From NCBI GenBank assembly GCA_902517795.1, contig CABYDR010000007.1, forward strand, positions 1 to 45,673: 45,673 nucleotides of DNA. Direction: 5' to 3'. The stretch comes from an uncultured Woeseiaceae bacterium. Lineage in GTDB: Bacteria; Pseudomonadota; Gammaproteobacteria; Steroidobacterales; Woeseiaceae. This document shows, piece after piece, positions 1 through 7,321 of this stretch; positions within the stretch are counted from its first letter, which is position 1, and each line of letters opens with the position of its first letter. Both the position numbers and the translations under genes were made by a program. The notes beneath the pieces were generated by a model that was not told the DNA's origin, searched no databases, and saw only the letters and a list, made by a program, of their open reading frames with translations.

Positions 1-3000
1 AGAAGAATCCGAGGAAGAAAGCTCAGACTCTGAAAATGAAGAAGAATCTGATACGGAAGTGGGCGATGACGAAGAATCGGATGACAGTGGTTCGGATGAC
101 TCAGGCAGTGATGACAGTGGAAATGAGGATGGCGGTTCGGATGCTTCTGCCGATAGCGAAGACAGCGGTATGGAAAATGAAACCGAAACTGAAGTAGAAA
201 ATGAAACCGAAACTGAAGTAGAAACAGAAATTGAGACTGAGACAGAGGCGCAACCCCAAGTCAACGAAGGCGCACTGGACTCCTCAGGAATCTCAGACAA
301 CTCCTCCAATGCCGATCCCGACACGCTCTCAGTGGCGGACGATTTTGCCGGCGACGTTGAAATTGAGGTCGAAGACGAAACCAACGACGAAAGCGCTACC
401 GAAGAAATTACTGAAGAAACCACCACTGTGGCTGCCGAGACCACCGTGGAAGATACTGCCACCAAAACCGTTGAGGTTATTGGTGTGTTTGAAACCGAGA
501 TTCAACAAAACATCACCGTTATGGATGAGAACAGCGCTGCAACCAAGGTAGCCAGCATCTTAATCGACAATCCATCTGACATCGCTTATAAGGTCGACAT
601 AACGGGCACTGGAAGTAATAGCTTTATTTATGATAAAGACAACAATGAATTACGTTATAACGGTAGCGCTGACTTTGAAAGTCAAGCACGTTATGAGTTG
701 GTTTTGGTGTTTACCAAATTAAATAACAACGAAGTAATCAATATTCCCATCAATATCGATGTCAATGATATCAATGAGGAACCGGATTTAATTGCCACTC
801 TAGCCGCAGCTAACTTCAGTGAAGATTCGGTTGTAGGCACCACTGTAATGACCGCATCAGCTAACGATCCAGAAGGGGGCGCTGTTACCTTTTCTCTTGG
901 TGGTACCGATGCTGATCTGTTCTCAATTGATGCTAATGGTACGGTCAGAATTGCCTCATTGCTTGATTATGAGACCAAAAAAAATTACAGCATTACTGTT
1001 ACTGCGTCAGATGGTATCCACAGTTTATCCAAGGCAATGGCCATATCGTTAACCGACATTAACGAAAATCACAGTGTGAATGTGACGGTGTCCGATGCCT
1101 CACTTACCGAAGCATCTGTTGTAGGCACCACTGTTGCCATCACCAGCGTCATCGATCCAGAAGGGGGCACGATAACCTACTCCCTTTCTGGCACCGATGC
1201 GAATAAGTTCACTATCGATGCCGATGGCACAGTCAAGACCGCCTCATTGCTTGATTATGAGACCAAAAACAATTACAGCGTGGTCGTGAACACCACCGCC
1301 GATGGTATCACCGTCTCCAAGACCATCTCCGTGAATATCAACAACATCAATGAAGCGCCGACACTCTCGGCCAACTTGGCTGCCGCCAACTTTGCTGAGA
1401 GCTCAGCGGTCGGCACCACTGTTGCCACTGCCTCGGCCAGCGATCCCGAGTCAGGCGCTATAACTTACTCACTTACCGGCACCGATGCCACTAAGTTCTC
1501 GATCGCCAGCAATGGCACCGTGACCATTGCCAGTCTTTTAGATTACGAGACCAAGTCCAGTTACAGCATCACCGTGAACGCTTCAGATGGCACCAATACT
1601 GCCTCCACCATGCTCGCCATCTCGGTCACCGATGTGTTACTGGATAGTTTGGTTACCGCTTTACAAAATACGCTCTTCACCGAGTCCAGTGCCAACGGCA
1701 CTGCGGTGGCATCCGTCTCTTCGATCGCCAATAGCAACAATGAGGCTTTGGTGTATACGCTCAGTGGCACCGGCAGCAACAAATTTACTGTTAACGCCAG
1801 TACCGGTGCCATCACCAACGTCTCGGCATTGGATTTTGAAGAAGCCAGAAGTTACAACCTGACTTTAACCGCAACCGGTCAGAGTTCAGGCGATACCGCC
1901 AGCAGCACCATCACCGTGCCGGTTAAAAACGTCGAAGAGTTGCAGTCGATGACCTTGCGCTACTCACCGGTTGCGCTCAGTCCTTCTCGCACTGGTTTTA
2001 GCGCCACCGCCACCCGTGATGGCGGCCCCTCCGGCACCAACTTAGGGAACTTCACGCAAGAACAGGTGGTCACGGCCACGGCAGCCACAGCCGATAGCAA
2101 ATACCTGACCAGTTACCACAACGGCAGCAACATGACTACACCGGTGTCAATCGTTAGCGGCGATGGCGTCAAGTATGACACCACGGTGGATAACTTTGAT
2201 TTTAAATATTTTTATCCGCTTGGTGCCACTGAAGGTGTTGGGCAGTATCAGTTCTCGCCCGGACAACAAAATCTAGATGGTCATTACAAAACCGTGGATG
2301 CACAAAGCCAAGTGGTGTTGGATATTGCACAGAGCGAAGTGGTCTCAGCGGGTCGTTTGAGTAGCGGTAAAGTGTATTGGATGGTGACCGATAAGAATGC
2401 AGCCAGCATGAACTTCAATTCACGGCAATCAAATGCTGCTGATCTTGATGTGCTGTTTCTGCATAATTACGCCTCCTCAGCTAATGCAATGAATGATGAG
2501 TGGGGTTGGAAGAAATTGATCACCGCTTATGGCATGGATTTTTCTCATAGCTTTTCCTCATATAATGCGATGCAGAATGCAGCAGATGATCTCGATGATT
2601 ATGAGATTATCGTTGATTCACGTATGAGCTATGGAAACGCCAGTGATGACGCATTATTTGAGAATTGGATGAAGGACGACGGCAGTCTTCTTTATGTCAA
2701 AATGTTTTCGGAAAGGATAGGCGGCAACACCATAGAAGCCAGAACGCATGCTTTTTTGCAAACCATTGGTGGTGGAATCACGATTTCAGGAGATATTGAT
2801 GAGGATGGCGGTACCCCTAATTACGGTGGTATCGTCGATGCGAATTTGTTTTCTTCAGATTCTATCTATTACGGTTTAAACGGGTTTATTTACGACCCCG
2901 CGGCGATGGGAAGACGTTTATCTGCTGCCACCAATGGTCAACTGTTGTTCAATAAAGCACAAGGCGATGGTGATGCCAACCTCTATTCGGCAGCATATTT

Positions 3001-6000
3001 TAAGGCTGAGGATCTCGAGTCCGGCGTGAACGCAGACATGTTTATTCATAATGATATCGGCGGAATAGGCGGTAATCACTCTACATATTACACCAGTCAA
3101 AATAATGAGGACATCGCTTTTTGGCTCCTTGATAGACATACATTGAGCGGGTATTCTTCCCAGCAATACCACACTTTCAACGATCAGATCACCCTGACTG
3201 GAGATGTCTTCACCGATGCCATGTACAACAGTTTTACCAGCAGCAATAAACGCGTCATCGCTTTAAATCCCATACCGATCGAGAATCATTTGGCATCGGG
3301 CACCAACGATGACTTTTTCTATCCGAGTTTTTTCCCATCGGGTATGTACTCAAGCGCTTCTATGGACTTTAAAAGCTTGGGTCCAGATTACTGTGCTGCG
3401 GTGGGCAACAATACCAGTACGTGTAACACTTACGCGAATAATTACGACTGGGCCGAGCAATTACTCGATGTTAATCAGACTGTTTATACCAGCCGATTCG
3501 ACGCCAGCAGTTCTGAGATGCCCGAAGGCACCTCTCAATGGTATCAAGTCCTGAACCCTGCCGGTAAAGGCGTCGGTTTACAGGCACAACTTTCCATTCA
3601 GGACTCGTATGACGGTGCTGGTGGCTCTACCACCCGCGATGATCAACAAAGTTACTTAGGCGTCATGATCAGTAGTCTAGATAAACGGAGCAATGACCTC
3701 ACTCGATATAACGTTGGGGACACCGGTCAGCAATTAGAAGGCAATCATTACTGGTCGTATCAAAAACGCACCAACGCCACCAACGATGGCTTGGGTGTGC
3801 AACTGGGCAGCACCCCGATTGAATGTGCATCCAGTTCTGATGTGGGGTGTTTTTTAGGACGCGATAACACTACCAATAACCGCCCGTTGGCTTTAATGGC
3901 TACCAGTTCTGATCCCTACAAAAATGGTGACATGACCCTCGGCGTCAAATACGACACCAATAGTGATAGCTGGGCAACCGACACCATCAATCAAATGGTG
4001 ACCAGTAATGCTATTTCAGGACGTCTATCAGGCGTTAGATCTGCCTTAAAATTTAATTGGTCTTATGGTGACTACATTACAAGTAATACGAATTGTGCTG
4101 ATAACACCTGCGCTATTCACTCCTTAGAAGCGGGCGATGCCTTTGCTGTCAGCACAATGTTCTACCTTCCAGAAAGTGATGGCAATCAAACCCATCCACT
4201 TTGGGGGACCAAGTGGTCTAGCGGAAATGGTAACGTTGATAGCGGTGAAGTTTACATGCATATCGAGAATAACCGGATAAGATTTGGCGGCGGCCGCATG
4301 TCTTCAAATTACATCAAGTTTAATGGAATCGATGATTTAACCGAAGGCCAATGGTACGGTTTGTATTTAACTTATGATGGCGGCAGTCTTACCCATTATC
4401 AAGAATTTAATTGTTGCATGACGATTAAGTTGGTGGATCCGGTAACTGGCGTGGTAACCACTGCGGCAGGCTCGCAACAAAACGGCAATAACCCTAACCA
4501 CTGGTTTACTGGCTCGGCAAACAAACGTTATTACATTGGTAATAATCATATTTCAAACAGCAACGATGACCAACTGATGATTGCCAACAACATTCAGACG
4601 ACATTGCAAGTTGGCCAACCTCAATCTGATGCCGAGATTGCGATGATGATTACAAACCCCAAACAATGGGTGACCGATTACAAGATCGGAAAAACAGCGC
4701 GCCTCTCCGAGTCATCCGGTACCTTTACCTTTGCCTTAGAGGACACCAATTCTTATAACGCAACTCAAGTATATATCTTGGGTGATGGATACCATGATTA
4801 TATGTGGCACTGGAATGGTGATTTAATGGTGTTTAATTACATCGACCGACCAACATGGGCTAATCCTGGTGTTTGGAGCTATCCAAACAACGGCAGCTAC
4901 TACGTTGGTGGTATGCTTGCTGGTAATACTGGTTTTCAATATAGTGGAACCGATGTTGAGATTTGTTGTACTGAAGAGGATTACAAATCCATCTCCGATT
5001 TTAGACACACCGATTTTTATTCTTCCACCGCCACCACTTATTATGGATTTTTTAGTGGCCTCATGGAGTTTGATGTTTCCGGCACCGGTAATGACCAGCT
5101 CGCCTCCATACGATCGAATAGCACGCTGACGTCAATTAATTTTGACACCACCAACGACGATGTCCAGGTGGCAGCACCGCTAACTGTCTCAAAACTACCC
5201 GGTAATAACTACACCAACACTTGGGACAAGGTAGATGAGGGCGAGCTGGTTCTTAATTTCGGTGATGCCGACAACAGCAATGCCAAGTCGGCTTATCTCT
5301 CCAATGAAGTCTTTGCCGCAGAGATACAGGACAATGGCACCCAGATCGACGGCTCCTCCGGTAGCACCAACAATTTGGCGGGGGTGATGGTAAGTTACAA
5401 CACTTTAGATAAAGAAGATTCGGATTTATTCCACACCAATGGCAATGACCCGATGCCCAATACCGAATATTCAACCTGGGGTTTTTGGGCTATGGGTGCA
5501 GTGGATGTCTCTCCCAACAGCGGCAATCAAACAGCAGCGGTGCATTTGGGCACCTGGGTTGCCGGTGAACTGCTGGCCAACAATAATATCCCTACTTCGG
5601 GCTCGGCCAACATGAGTGGTGCCGCAGTGGTCAAAGCCGCATATCGTCATAACTCAAGTGACAACACTTACGATGTACACAAATACACTACCACTGCGGA
5701 TGTGGCCGCCACCTTTAACTGGGGTTCCAGTGCTTACACTGGTACCTTAGCGTTCACCAACTTTGATGATAAGAACCCGATTGTTGTCAACGCCGGCTTT
5801 ACTTCTTTTAACGTCAGTCTTAACAGCAGCAACGGTCTTACCAGCAGATATACTGGTGCTTCCACCACCACCATCCAAAACGGTTGGTTGGGTGGGGCAG
5901 CTGTGGAAGGCGCGCTCTATAAAAGTACTTACCCAGATGAGAGTGGCGGTCGCATTAATGTCAGTTTATATAAGAATGGCCCACTAAATGGTCAAGGAGC

Positions 6001-6043: not shown

Positions 6044-6094
6044 ATGTGGGTTAATACTGAAATAGAAATATAAAAAATCAAACAGGAGAGCAAT

Positions 6095-6850
6095 GTGAGT
6101 TTTGTCGATTTTTTCTTAAAGATACGCAACAGTAAAGCGTTTAACACTATTGTAATATCAGTGATACTGGCGTCGGCTTTTTATGCTGGTGTTACTACTT
6201 ATGATCTACCAGACAATTATGAAGCGGCATTAAACTTTTTTGATTACTCGATCACAGTATTTTTTGTCATTGAAATATTGATTCGTTTGATGTCTGAGAA
6301 ACGCTTGGTGGATTTCTTTAAGAGCGGCTGGAACGTGTTTGATTTTATCATCGTCACGGTCAGTTTGATCCCAGTCGGTGGTGCAGAGACAGTGTTTGTG
6401 GCTCGATTGTTGCGTATTGTCAGAATCCTTCGTGTGATTACGATTGTGCCAGAGTTCCGCCGCATTATTGATGGGCTTATTAAAACCATACCGCGTGCAG
6501 GCTTTATTATTCTCTTGATGTCGATCTTCTTTTATATCTGGGCAGCCATCGGTTCGTTGATGTTTGATGAGATCGATCCGTCGCGTTGGGGCAACATTGG
6601 CAGTGCCATGTTGGTGTTATTGCAAATGATCACCTACGATGACTGGGCGGCCGTTATGCGGGATGTATTGGAGGTTTATCCATGGGCGTGGATCTATTTT
6701 GTGAGTTTCTTGATCTTGAATGCCTTTATTCTCTTTAACATGGTGATTGGTATTATTGTTGATGTCATGGCAAGAGAAGCGCAAGCTGAACACATGGCAG
6801 AATTACAACAAAACCCGACCAGTGTCGACGAATCTGACCCGCAAGCGTAG
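6095..6850 (+). CDS. Single-domain voltage-gated cation channel (NaChBac/BacNav type)
   Basis: Inner-membrane ion channel of 251 residues, expected to work as a homotetramer. Six membrane segments are visible: S1 about 15-36, S2 44-66, S3 75-93, S4 100-118, S5 132-152 and S6 197-220, with a pore loop between S5 and S6. S4 carries arginines at every third position (R104, R107, R110, R113), the voltage-sensor signature. The filter reads T180-Y-D-D-W-A-A. Sodium channels NaChBac and NavAb have TLESW there, while the calcium-selective mutant CavAb has TLDDWSD, so Ca2+ permeation is plausible (inference). The start is GTG at 6095, preceded by CAGGAGAG; the ATG two bases upstream is followed directly by TGA. 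It starts 51 bases after the giant surface-protein gene and may be co-transcribed with it. Confidence 0.9.
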   Translation: MSFVDFFLKIRNSKAFNTIVISVILASAFYAGVTTYDLPDNYEAALNFFDYSITVFFVIEILIRLMSEKRLVDFFKSGWNVFDFIIVTVSLIPVGGAETVFVARLLRIVRILRVITIVPEFRRIIDGLIKTIPRAGFIILLMSIFFYIWAAIGSLMFDEIDPSRWGNIGSAMLVLLQMITYDDWAAVMRDVLEVYPWAWIYFVSFLILNAFILFNMVIGIIVDVMAREAQAEHMAELQQNPTSVDESDPQA

Positions 6851-6862
6851 TCAGTAATTCAA

Positions 6863-7321
6863 ATGCACGGCATATCTCGGGATCATGAGTTTATGTCGTT
6901 GGCTCTGGCCGAAGCACACGTTGCTGAAAAACAGAATGAAGTCCCAGTGGGAGCCATTGTTGTAGTTGAAGATAAAGTGATTGCCTCGGGATTCAATCGC
7001 ACCATTGTGGATTGTGATCCCACTGCACATGCTGAAATGGTGGCCATTCGTAAAGCCGCAAAAGAAATTAATAATCACCGTCTCAACCAAGCCACCGTGT
7101 TCGTTACCTTGGAACCCTGCGCCATGTGCATGGGGGCTTTATTGCAGGCACGCATAAAACGTTTGGTGTATGGTGCCAGCGATCCTAAAGCCGGAGCAGC
7201 CGGCAGTGTCATGGATTTATCCAATCTTCCCGAACTCAATCATAGGATTGATGTTGAAAAAGGAATACTAAAAGACGAATGTGCTGAAATCTTAAGGGCG
7301 TTTTTTAGAGCGCGTCGCTGA
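6863..7321 (+). CDS. tadA: tRNA-specific adenosine deaminase TadA
   Basis: Converts the wobble adenosine of tRNA-Arg(ACG) to inosine, an essential cytosolic reaction. The 152 residues cover the whole cytidine/deoxycytidylate-deaminase fold. The zinc site is intact: H56-A-E58 with the catalytic glutamate, and PCAMC with C86 and C89. Positions are one off from E. coli TadA (H57, C87, C90), supporting the start at 6863, although no strong Shine-Dalgarno is visible. Its 3' end overlaps the convergent mltF by 17 bases. It lies 12 bases after the channel gene, so it may be transcribed with it. Confidence 0.95.
   Translation: MHGISRDHEFMSLALAEAHVAEKQNEVPVGAIVVVEDKVIASGFNRTIVDCDPTAHAEMVAIRKAAKEINNHRLNQATVFVTLEPCAMCMGALLQARIKRLVYGASDPKAGAAGSVMDLSNLPELNHRIDVEKGILKDECAEILRAFFRARR

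Follow-up and report, generated by a model that had tools for sequence, protein, structure and literature searches.

The rules for calcium selectivity among bacterial voltage-gated channels were derived mostly from engineered filters and from CavMr, which a 2020 report described as the first native Ca2+ channel of a prokaryote. As described in PMC10120453, an aspartate at position 4 of the NavAb filter (TLEDWSM) raises the permeability of Ca2+ over Na+ approximately 100-fold, and one-domain channels bearing this 'beacon' residue are always Ca2+-selective; according to the same text, CatSper1 has aspartate at both filter positions, and OsEukCatA1, which pairs a position-3 aspartate with a small, uncharged residue at position 4, is non-selective. 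Filters with three aspartates, at positions 3, 4 and 7, confer a preference for Ca2+ on NavAb, NaChBac and NsvBa (PMC10120453, PMC4225499, PMC4972137), with a PCa/PNa of about 30 for NsvBa LDDWADG (PMC4225499). NaChBac with LEDWAS is non-selective and NavMs E178D has a PCa/PNa of only 0.5 (PMC4972137); replacing glutamate by aspartate at position 3 loosened Na+ selectivity in NavMs (PMC4972137) and also, by a citation in PMC4225499, in NaChBac.

Regarding the ancestor-like channels (AnclNavs), with the filters TLEGWVD in CavMr and TLEDWTD in NavPp, PMC7041947 gives a PCa/PNa of 218 for CavMr, 7.7 for CavMr-G4D, 13.8 for CavMr-Pp (TLEDWTD placed in CavMr) and 0.308 for NavPp, which is blocked by Ca2+, and names glycine at position 4 as the determinant of Ca2+ selectivity in both proteins. 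Thus, the outcome of one and the same filter depends on the backbone that carries it, and NavPp, preferring Na+ with an aspartate at position 4, contradicts the rule of PMC10120453 that such channels are always Ca2+-selective. Moreover, no current was obtained after exchanging filters between CavMr and NavAb, nor were currents detected for two expressed AnclNavs, those of Halomonas elongata and Teredinibacter turnerae (PMC7041947), and NavRh is non-functional in heterologous cells (PMC4225499).

The channel and its clade

The window, a stretch of 45,673 nucleotides from an uncultured Woeseiaceae bacterium, contains a single-domain voltage-gated cation channel gene (Table 1), whose product matches the Pfam family Ion_trans (PF00520) with 143.9 bits against a cut-off of 25 bits. 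The protein is read as a six-helix channel, S1 to S6, with helix labels taken from homology and from the predicted model; its class is shown by the sequence, the predicted fold and the tree, and it would be voltage-gated and tetrameric. An earlier note on this DNA had placed a TYDDWAA filter at residue 180, between nucleotides 6620 and 6660, along with an intact S4, and the translation bears out both, the filter lying inside that interval and all four arginines being present. The codon pattern of TYDDW has a single occurrence in the window and was absent from all 100 shuffles, and scans for Rfam families and tRNAs gave no match in the window.

Table 1. Features of the channel locus, in coordinates of the window
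Feature	Position	Strand	Basis and remarks
Giant cadherin-repeat protein gene, last 2,013 codons	2..6043	+	Pfam, homologues; 5' end cut by contig start, where the window begins
Probable ribosome-binding site (AGGAG) for the channel	6084..6088	+	sequence; ends 6 nt before the start
Single-domain voltage-gated cation channel gene	6095..6850	+	ORF, Pfam and model; GTG start, 251 aa
S4 gating charges R104, R107, R110, R113	6404..6433	+	translation, alignment
Selectivity filter T180-Y-D-D-W-A-A	6632..6652	+	translation, alignment
S6 asparagine N215, conserved	6737..6739	+	alignment

An AlphaFold2 model built with 41 sequences has a mean pLDDT of 89.4, and in Foldseek its first match is NavRh, followed by four NavAb entries and, in sixth place, NaChBac. 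VIA-align gave Z values of 18.8-20.1 over the 50 rows shown, nearly all of them NavAb or CavAb entries; these rows do not include NavRh, which excludes nothing. In a sequence search of the PDB, NavRh (4dxw) was the best single-domain chain (E 1.1e-61), ahead of NaChBac (E 2.7e-51). The top sequence scores of T-type Ca2+ channels were rejected as a sign of Ca2+ selectivity because they sum several repeats, and a K+ channel assignment by NCBIfam was rejected as a sub-threshold match, with 20 bits versus 300.

Filters of the form T[YF]DDW[AG][AN], hereafter TxDDW, were found in at least 57 distinct sequences including that of the window (79 rows with duplicates), drawn from named genome contigs (the best 80 of 327 matches), 60 relatives and 199 genomes of the SAR86 order. 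Duplicates were collapsed on 200 residues for conservation counts, giving these 57, and on a 160-residue core for the counts of upstream linkage, giving 54 distinct TxDDW sequences. Invariant in 57/57 are T180, D182, D183, W184, the four S4 arginines, N215 and, of the S2/S3 acids, E60; D83 is present in 56, with a gap in the remaining one. The other filter positions vary little: position 181 is tyrosine in 56 and phenylalanine in one, position 185 is alanine in 47 and glycine in 10, and position 186 (filter position 7) is alanine in 51 and asparagine in 6. Because the filter threonine, aspartates and tryptophan, E60, the arginines and the asparagine are invariant, a chance origin of this filter is rejected. 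The occurrence of natural aspartates at filter positions 3 and 4, claimed by the earlier note for one protein, therefore extends to every distinct sequence of the set, and, as read from translations, the TxDDW filter is natural in marine small-genome bacteria and bears the paired acids that were engineered into Na+ channels for Ca2+.

Among the matches listed, TxDDW carriers belong mostly to SAR86 and to the small-genome Woeseiaceae genus of the window. Of the 199 genomes in the SAR86-order sample, 71 have a channel match, one apiece, with the filters TYDDW (55), TFDDW (1), TLEGWPD (4), TLSSWET or TLSSWES (7), TMSSWEN (2) and TVSGWED (1), the last match being truncated before the filter; this one (G175) was assigned to TxDDW because of an identity of 62-63%, and L012 and L013 were dropped from the filter reading for want of a match. 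One order thus contains three principal types of natural filter (TYDDW, TLEGWPD and the NavRh-like TLSSWET), which makes selectivity comparable among relatives. Nine genomes of the window's own genus, several of them incomplete, gave TYDDW in three, TLEGWPD in one and no channel in five. A class-wide sample had a channel match in 101/369 genomes, and among the 50 filters read there, window included, TxDDW occurs only in the window; both the 199- and the 369-genome sets are samples.

The phylogenetic tree, calculated with the filter columns masked, comprised 61 rows, with 24 TxDDW rows, five TLESW loci and NavMs as the canonical channels, NavRh, and proxy rows of alike or equal filters standing in for CavMr and NavPp. 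All 24 TxDDW rows fall in one clade (support 100/99, and 100% of 200 bootstrap trees), so on this sequence evidence the filter is a clade-wide trait of single origin. This clade groups with TFEDW, TFESW, TLEDW and TLEGW channels (99/91), NavRh lies in a separate clade with TLSSW, TMSSW and TVSGW (97/92), and the five TLESW loci with NavMs split off outside (100/100). A quick tree placed TLEGW as sister of TxDDW (SH-aLRT 83); the 61-row tree supported no particular sister, TLEGW pairing there with TFEDW (85/52). Judged by these proxies, the window channel is related to the ancestor-like CavMr/NavPp branch. The label 'NaChBac-type' used in the earlier note is accordingly not kept, as the protein groups with channels of CavMr/NavPp-like filters, apart from TLESW and NavMs, and the PDB search sets NavRh above NaChBac.

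The C-terminus after the S6 asparagine agrees with this separation from the canonical channels, having a median of 30 residues in TYDDW proteins (range 19-37, n=42; 36 in the window) versus 57-70 in seven TLESW/TMESW proteins. By length, the long C-terminal coiled-coil region of canonical BacNavs is therefore lacking in TYDDW, and a short C-terminus is common to TYDDW and NavRh-type proteins. The length of the pore loop was discarded as a clade marker, as distances from the filter threonine to the S6 asparagine overlap between filter types: 35 residues in all counted TxDDW, TFEDW, TLEDW, TLEGW, TLSSW, TMSSW and TVSGW proteins, 35 in 11/14 and 36 in 3/14 of TFESW, and 36 in the seven TLESW/TMESW proteins. 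The numbering of NaChBac presumably gives 35 as well.

Several other channels were observed along the way. TLEGWPD, one residue away from the Ca2+-selective CavMr filter TLEGWVD, occurs in four SAR86-order genomes and one genus mate of the window (L126-L129, L004), and NavRh-like channels (L130, L131, L133-L140; TLSSWET/S, TMSSWEN, TVSGWED) in 10/199 SAR86-order genomes, the copy of genome G252 (L137) having two in-frame stops. A relative from the class sample (L201) has the filter TFDNWAH, another natural variant with aspartate at position 3. TYDDW channels also appear under the titles Flammeovirgaceae (L015, NZHT01000078.1) and Opitutia (L030, NZKY01000116.1); the former locus shares the window's gene order and its channel is 89% identical, so the two titles may be erroneous, or mixed bins may lie behind them. 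A 97-kb viral contig (L014, IMGVR_UViG_3300003086_000114) encodes at 2962-3795 a channel 44% identical, with the filter TFEDWTD, adjoining an ORF that resembles a subtilase by eye; the contig also encodes an exonuclease and a DNA polymerase of phage type (phrog_262). Either a phage carries this voltage-gated channel or the contig has been mis-called. Near the end of an unannotated faecal phage record (MT835812.1:16533-17174), there is a channel-like stretch with 28% identity. The string TYDDW had no match in one open-licence library of papers.

Predicted ion selectivity of the TxDDW filter

From the two aspartates, the earlier note had inferred a native channel permeable to Ca2+ or mixed, and this inference stands in part: the double aspartate, the intact sensor and the NavAb-based literature speak for it, but there is no third aspartate and the charge rule fails in the CavMr/NavPp backbone. 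The calcium reading is then a fair hypothesis, resting on a backbone where the charge rule may not hold, and since the CavMr/NavAb swaps carried no current, rules derived from NavAb may not carry over to this channel. Compared with a CavAb-type filter, aspartate was found at positions 3 and 4 in 57/57 sequences and at position 7 in 0/57. The tyrosine at position 2, counted by the note as a further departure, is probably not a large one, phenylalanine being usual there in TFEDWTD relatives; NavAb L176F shows no Ca2+ block (PMC10349818).

Because the CavMr/NavPp backbone is less selective for Ca2+ when position 4 is aspartate, the channel is predicted to conduct both Na+ and Ca2+ with a modest preference for Ca2+, with a PCa/PNa above 1 and probably below 50. 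A strongly selective channel, with a PCa/PNa above 50, would be the natural counterpart of CavAb or CatSper1, having aspartate at both key positions as CavAb does and as PMC10120453 states for CatSper1; the invariance of both residues in 57/57 sequences agrees with this. Nevertheless, it is judged quite unlikely, for the third aspartate is missing, so is the position-4 glycine that determines selectivity in CavMr and NavPp, and the currentless swaps between CavMr and NavAb indicate that NavAb rules may not apply.

On the opposite side, the protein could be a Na+ channel like NavPp with a low-affinity Ca2+ block, in which Ca2+ is bound by the aspartates at the mouth of the pore and passes through inefficiently. 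The channels that group with TxDDW have TFEDWTD and TLEDWTD, and the latter in NavPp is the filter that goes with Na+ preference and Ca2+ block. Seawater, moreover, is rich in Na+. This possibility is nonetheless rated as doubtful, because the window has aspartate and not glutamate at position 3, an exchange that loosened Na+ selectivity elsewhere, and because TLEDWTD favoured Ca2+ once placed in CavMr, the effect being backbone-dependent.

A very unlikely alternative is that the protein ordinarily provides no independent voltage-gated conductance, acting for instance as a voltage sensor or leak partner for a surface module, which would make selectivity moot. The silence of NavRh and of two AnclNavs in the expression studies cited above and the short C-terminus shared with NavRh-type proteins would fit it, whereas S4 arginines, filter aspartates and S6 asparagine invariant in 57/57 sequences are what a working pore is expected to preserve. 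Whatever its selectivity, the set of at least 57 natural Asp-Asp filter sequences, related to NavPp/CavMr-like channels, offers a ready test of charge versus geometry.

Linked genes and a putative surface module

A gap of 51 nt separates the giant cadherin-repeat gene of the window from the channel gene, and in this gap no promoter-like or plus-strand terminator-like site was found. Homologues in other loci have frames of about 2,140-2,670 aa whose start resembles, by eye, a signal peptide; the one in L219 contains a FecR domain (27.2 bits, cut-off 24) and six cadherin stretches, and the one in L231 eight cadherin stretches with no FecR match at E 0.01. The giant protein is probably located at the cell surface and presumably binds Ca2+.

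In 19/22 loci first compared, a giant homologue is found upstream in the same orientation. Among the matches listed, counting distinct channels whose upstream flank reaches 1 kb or more, it precedes 30 of 39 TxDDW channels versus 0 of 94 channels with other filters; the count drops L164 and L088 (truncated, no filter) as well as L066 and L183 (filter not caught). Five of the nine TxDDW channels without it have a barrel gene directly upstream and four have neither, with L223, L241 and L242 showing neither within 15-17 kb upstream. For 15 TxDDW channels with a flank below 1 kb, the giant was found in six and not in nine. The two frames are less than 50 nt apart in most loci and 157-178 nt in one group, and another group has a gap of 562 nt with an extra frame of 150-156 aa.

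At the level of whole genomes, the giant occurs in 48/57 TxDDW carriers of the SAR86-order sample (47/56 without G175), 0/14 carriers of other filters and 3/128 channel-less genomes, with Fisher values of 4e-33 over the 199 genomes and 3e-9 against other-filter carriers; these ignore kinship and, as the genomes are related, overstate the association. It is present in 3/3 TYDDW genomes of the window's genus and 0/6 others, and in 1/369 genomes of the class sample, namely the window's own.

The barrel gene, of about 450 aa, precedes the giant in L220, L221, L231, L233, L244, L245 and L246, and in the genome of the window it lies on another contig (C16). Its product is predicted to consist of TPR helices followed by 14 strands (mean pLDDT 74.4), with BcsC first and OmpG next in Foldseek at low TM-scores of 0.31-0.35 by query length, and with CymA (Z 16.1) and OmpG (up to 15.4) in VIA; the VIA rows shown include no entry titled Slam, which excludes nothing. 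Type XI secretion outer-membrane proteins are described as having N-terminal TPRs and a 14-strand barrel (PMC8406197), and their cargo is treated in PMC12282271. In two barrel proteins scanned, DUF560 (PF04575) gave no match at E 0.01, and TPR_Slam reached only 17.2 bits against a cut-off of 35.2 in barrel proteins. The gene was found in 43/57 TxDDW carriers, 0/14 other-filter genomes and 5/128 channel-less genomes of the SAR86-order sample, and in four of nine genomes of the window's genus, two of them (G005, G008) with no TYDDW channel found; 8/57 carriers have neither barrel nor giant. The barrel probably exports the giant protein.

Some loci depart from this arrangement. In genome G063 (L222; C1:494789-496067), the giant frame before the intact channel has only 1,438 aa; before it lie a frame of 925 aa and fragments of giant-like sequence, and several stops interrupt the barrel gene, which is located elsewhere on that contig. 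Tandem giant genes precede the channel in L245, L236 and L235, and G195:C49 has a tandem in a genome with no channel found. On the 3' side of the window's channel, a cytidine/adenosine deaminase-family gene lies at 6863-7321 on the plus strand, which we take to be tadA-like; a match is also downstream in L015 and L016, and not in the SAR86-type loci among the 22 compared.

By linkage and co-occurrence, channel, giant and barrel form a co-inherited module. Whether this reflects function is a question apart from ion selectivity, and hitch-hiking by joint transfer or common descent, with no functional coupling, is held to be somewhat unlikely. The SAR86 and Woeseiaceae copies could be a single transferred block, the genomes are non-independent samples and eight carriers lack both partners; against this, the linkage is seen in both orders, mostly at short spacing, is absent from all 94 channels with other filters, and persists between channels about 54-59% identical to that of the window, whose giants are only 25-31% identical in their C-termini.

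The reading preferred, tentatively and at slightly under even confidence, is a homotetrameric inner-membrane channel with mixed Na+/Ca2+ conduction and a modest Ca2+ preference, belonging to the co-inherited barrel/giant module. Such a channel would open on depolarisation, cations would pass a ring of eight filter aspartates, and a mixed flow with modest Ca2+ preference would follow; the TPR-plus-14-strand barrel probably exports the giant, and the Ca2+ that enters would serve as a signal of membrane voltage connected with the giant, which presumably lies at the surface and binds Ca2+. The bolder version, a native Ca2+ channel in a surface module whose barrel exports a Ca2+-binding giant and where depolarisation leads to Ca2+ entry tied to that giant, is considered unlikely; if true, a voltage-to-Ca2+ signal would be linked to cell contact in widespread small-genome marine bacteria without flagellin. 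The linkage hints that membrane voltage and calcium may be tied to the cell surface, in a way that can be tested.

Concerning other roles, flagellin was found in 0 of 20 genomes searched, with 4 of 14 control genomes positive, so a part in swimming is unlikely and motility as the main role was set aside. MotA_ExbB matched in 20/20 genomes, a search uninformative on motility because ExbB/TolQ proteins belong to the same family. The Na+/Ca2+ exchanger family is present in 19/20, including channel-less genus mates, and thus lends no support to a Ca2+ role; a calcium-handling link on this basis was rejected as it does not discriminate. The linked giant cadherin-repeat gene is a lead on channel function in cells with no flagellin gene found. 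In one open-licence library, the listings of papers on SAR86 together with a voltage-gated channel, cadherin or adhesin contained nothing relevant.

Comparison with described systems

The barrel gene of the homologous loci resembles type XI secretion (Slam/DUF560) in having TPRs and 14 strands in its model; it differs in giving no DUF560 match, the giant is a putative cargo, and the gene is off the window's contig. Turning to the channel, NaChBac, NavAb and NavMs share its six-helix plan and S4 arginines but differ in the filter, the window having TYDDW in place of the canonical BacNav TLESW, and in a longer tail after the S6 asparagine; relative to NavMs, the window channel has one residue fewer after the filter tryptophan. 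NavRh (TLSSWET) is the nearest single-domain PDB chain, the first in Foldseek and similarly short at the C-terminus, whereas its filter has no aspartate and it sits outside, in the TLSSW/TMSSW/TVSGW clade.

CatSper1, a subunit of the sperm Ca2+ channel, is described as having aspartate at both filter positions (PMC10120453); unlike the window protein, it is one of several subunits of a eukaryotic channel. CavAb, the engineered NavAb with TLDDWSD, shares aspartate at positions 3 and 4 and the same fold in VIA-align and Foldseek, while the window filter is natural, has tyrosine at position 2 and, as in TxDDW generally, alanine or asparagine at position 7. In comparison with CavMr and NavPp, for which filter-alike proxies stand in, the window has aspartate and not glutamate at position 3, tyrosine at position 2 and no aspartate at position 7, and TxDDW forms a clade of its own with a C-terminus shorter than in TFEDW and TLEGW relatives; it shares with these AnclNavs, however, the extra filter acid, and groups with the TLEDWTD, TFEDWTD and TLEGWPD channels (99/91).
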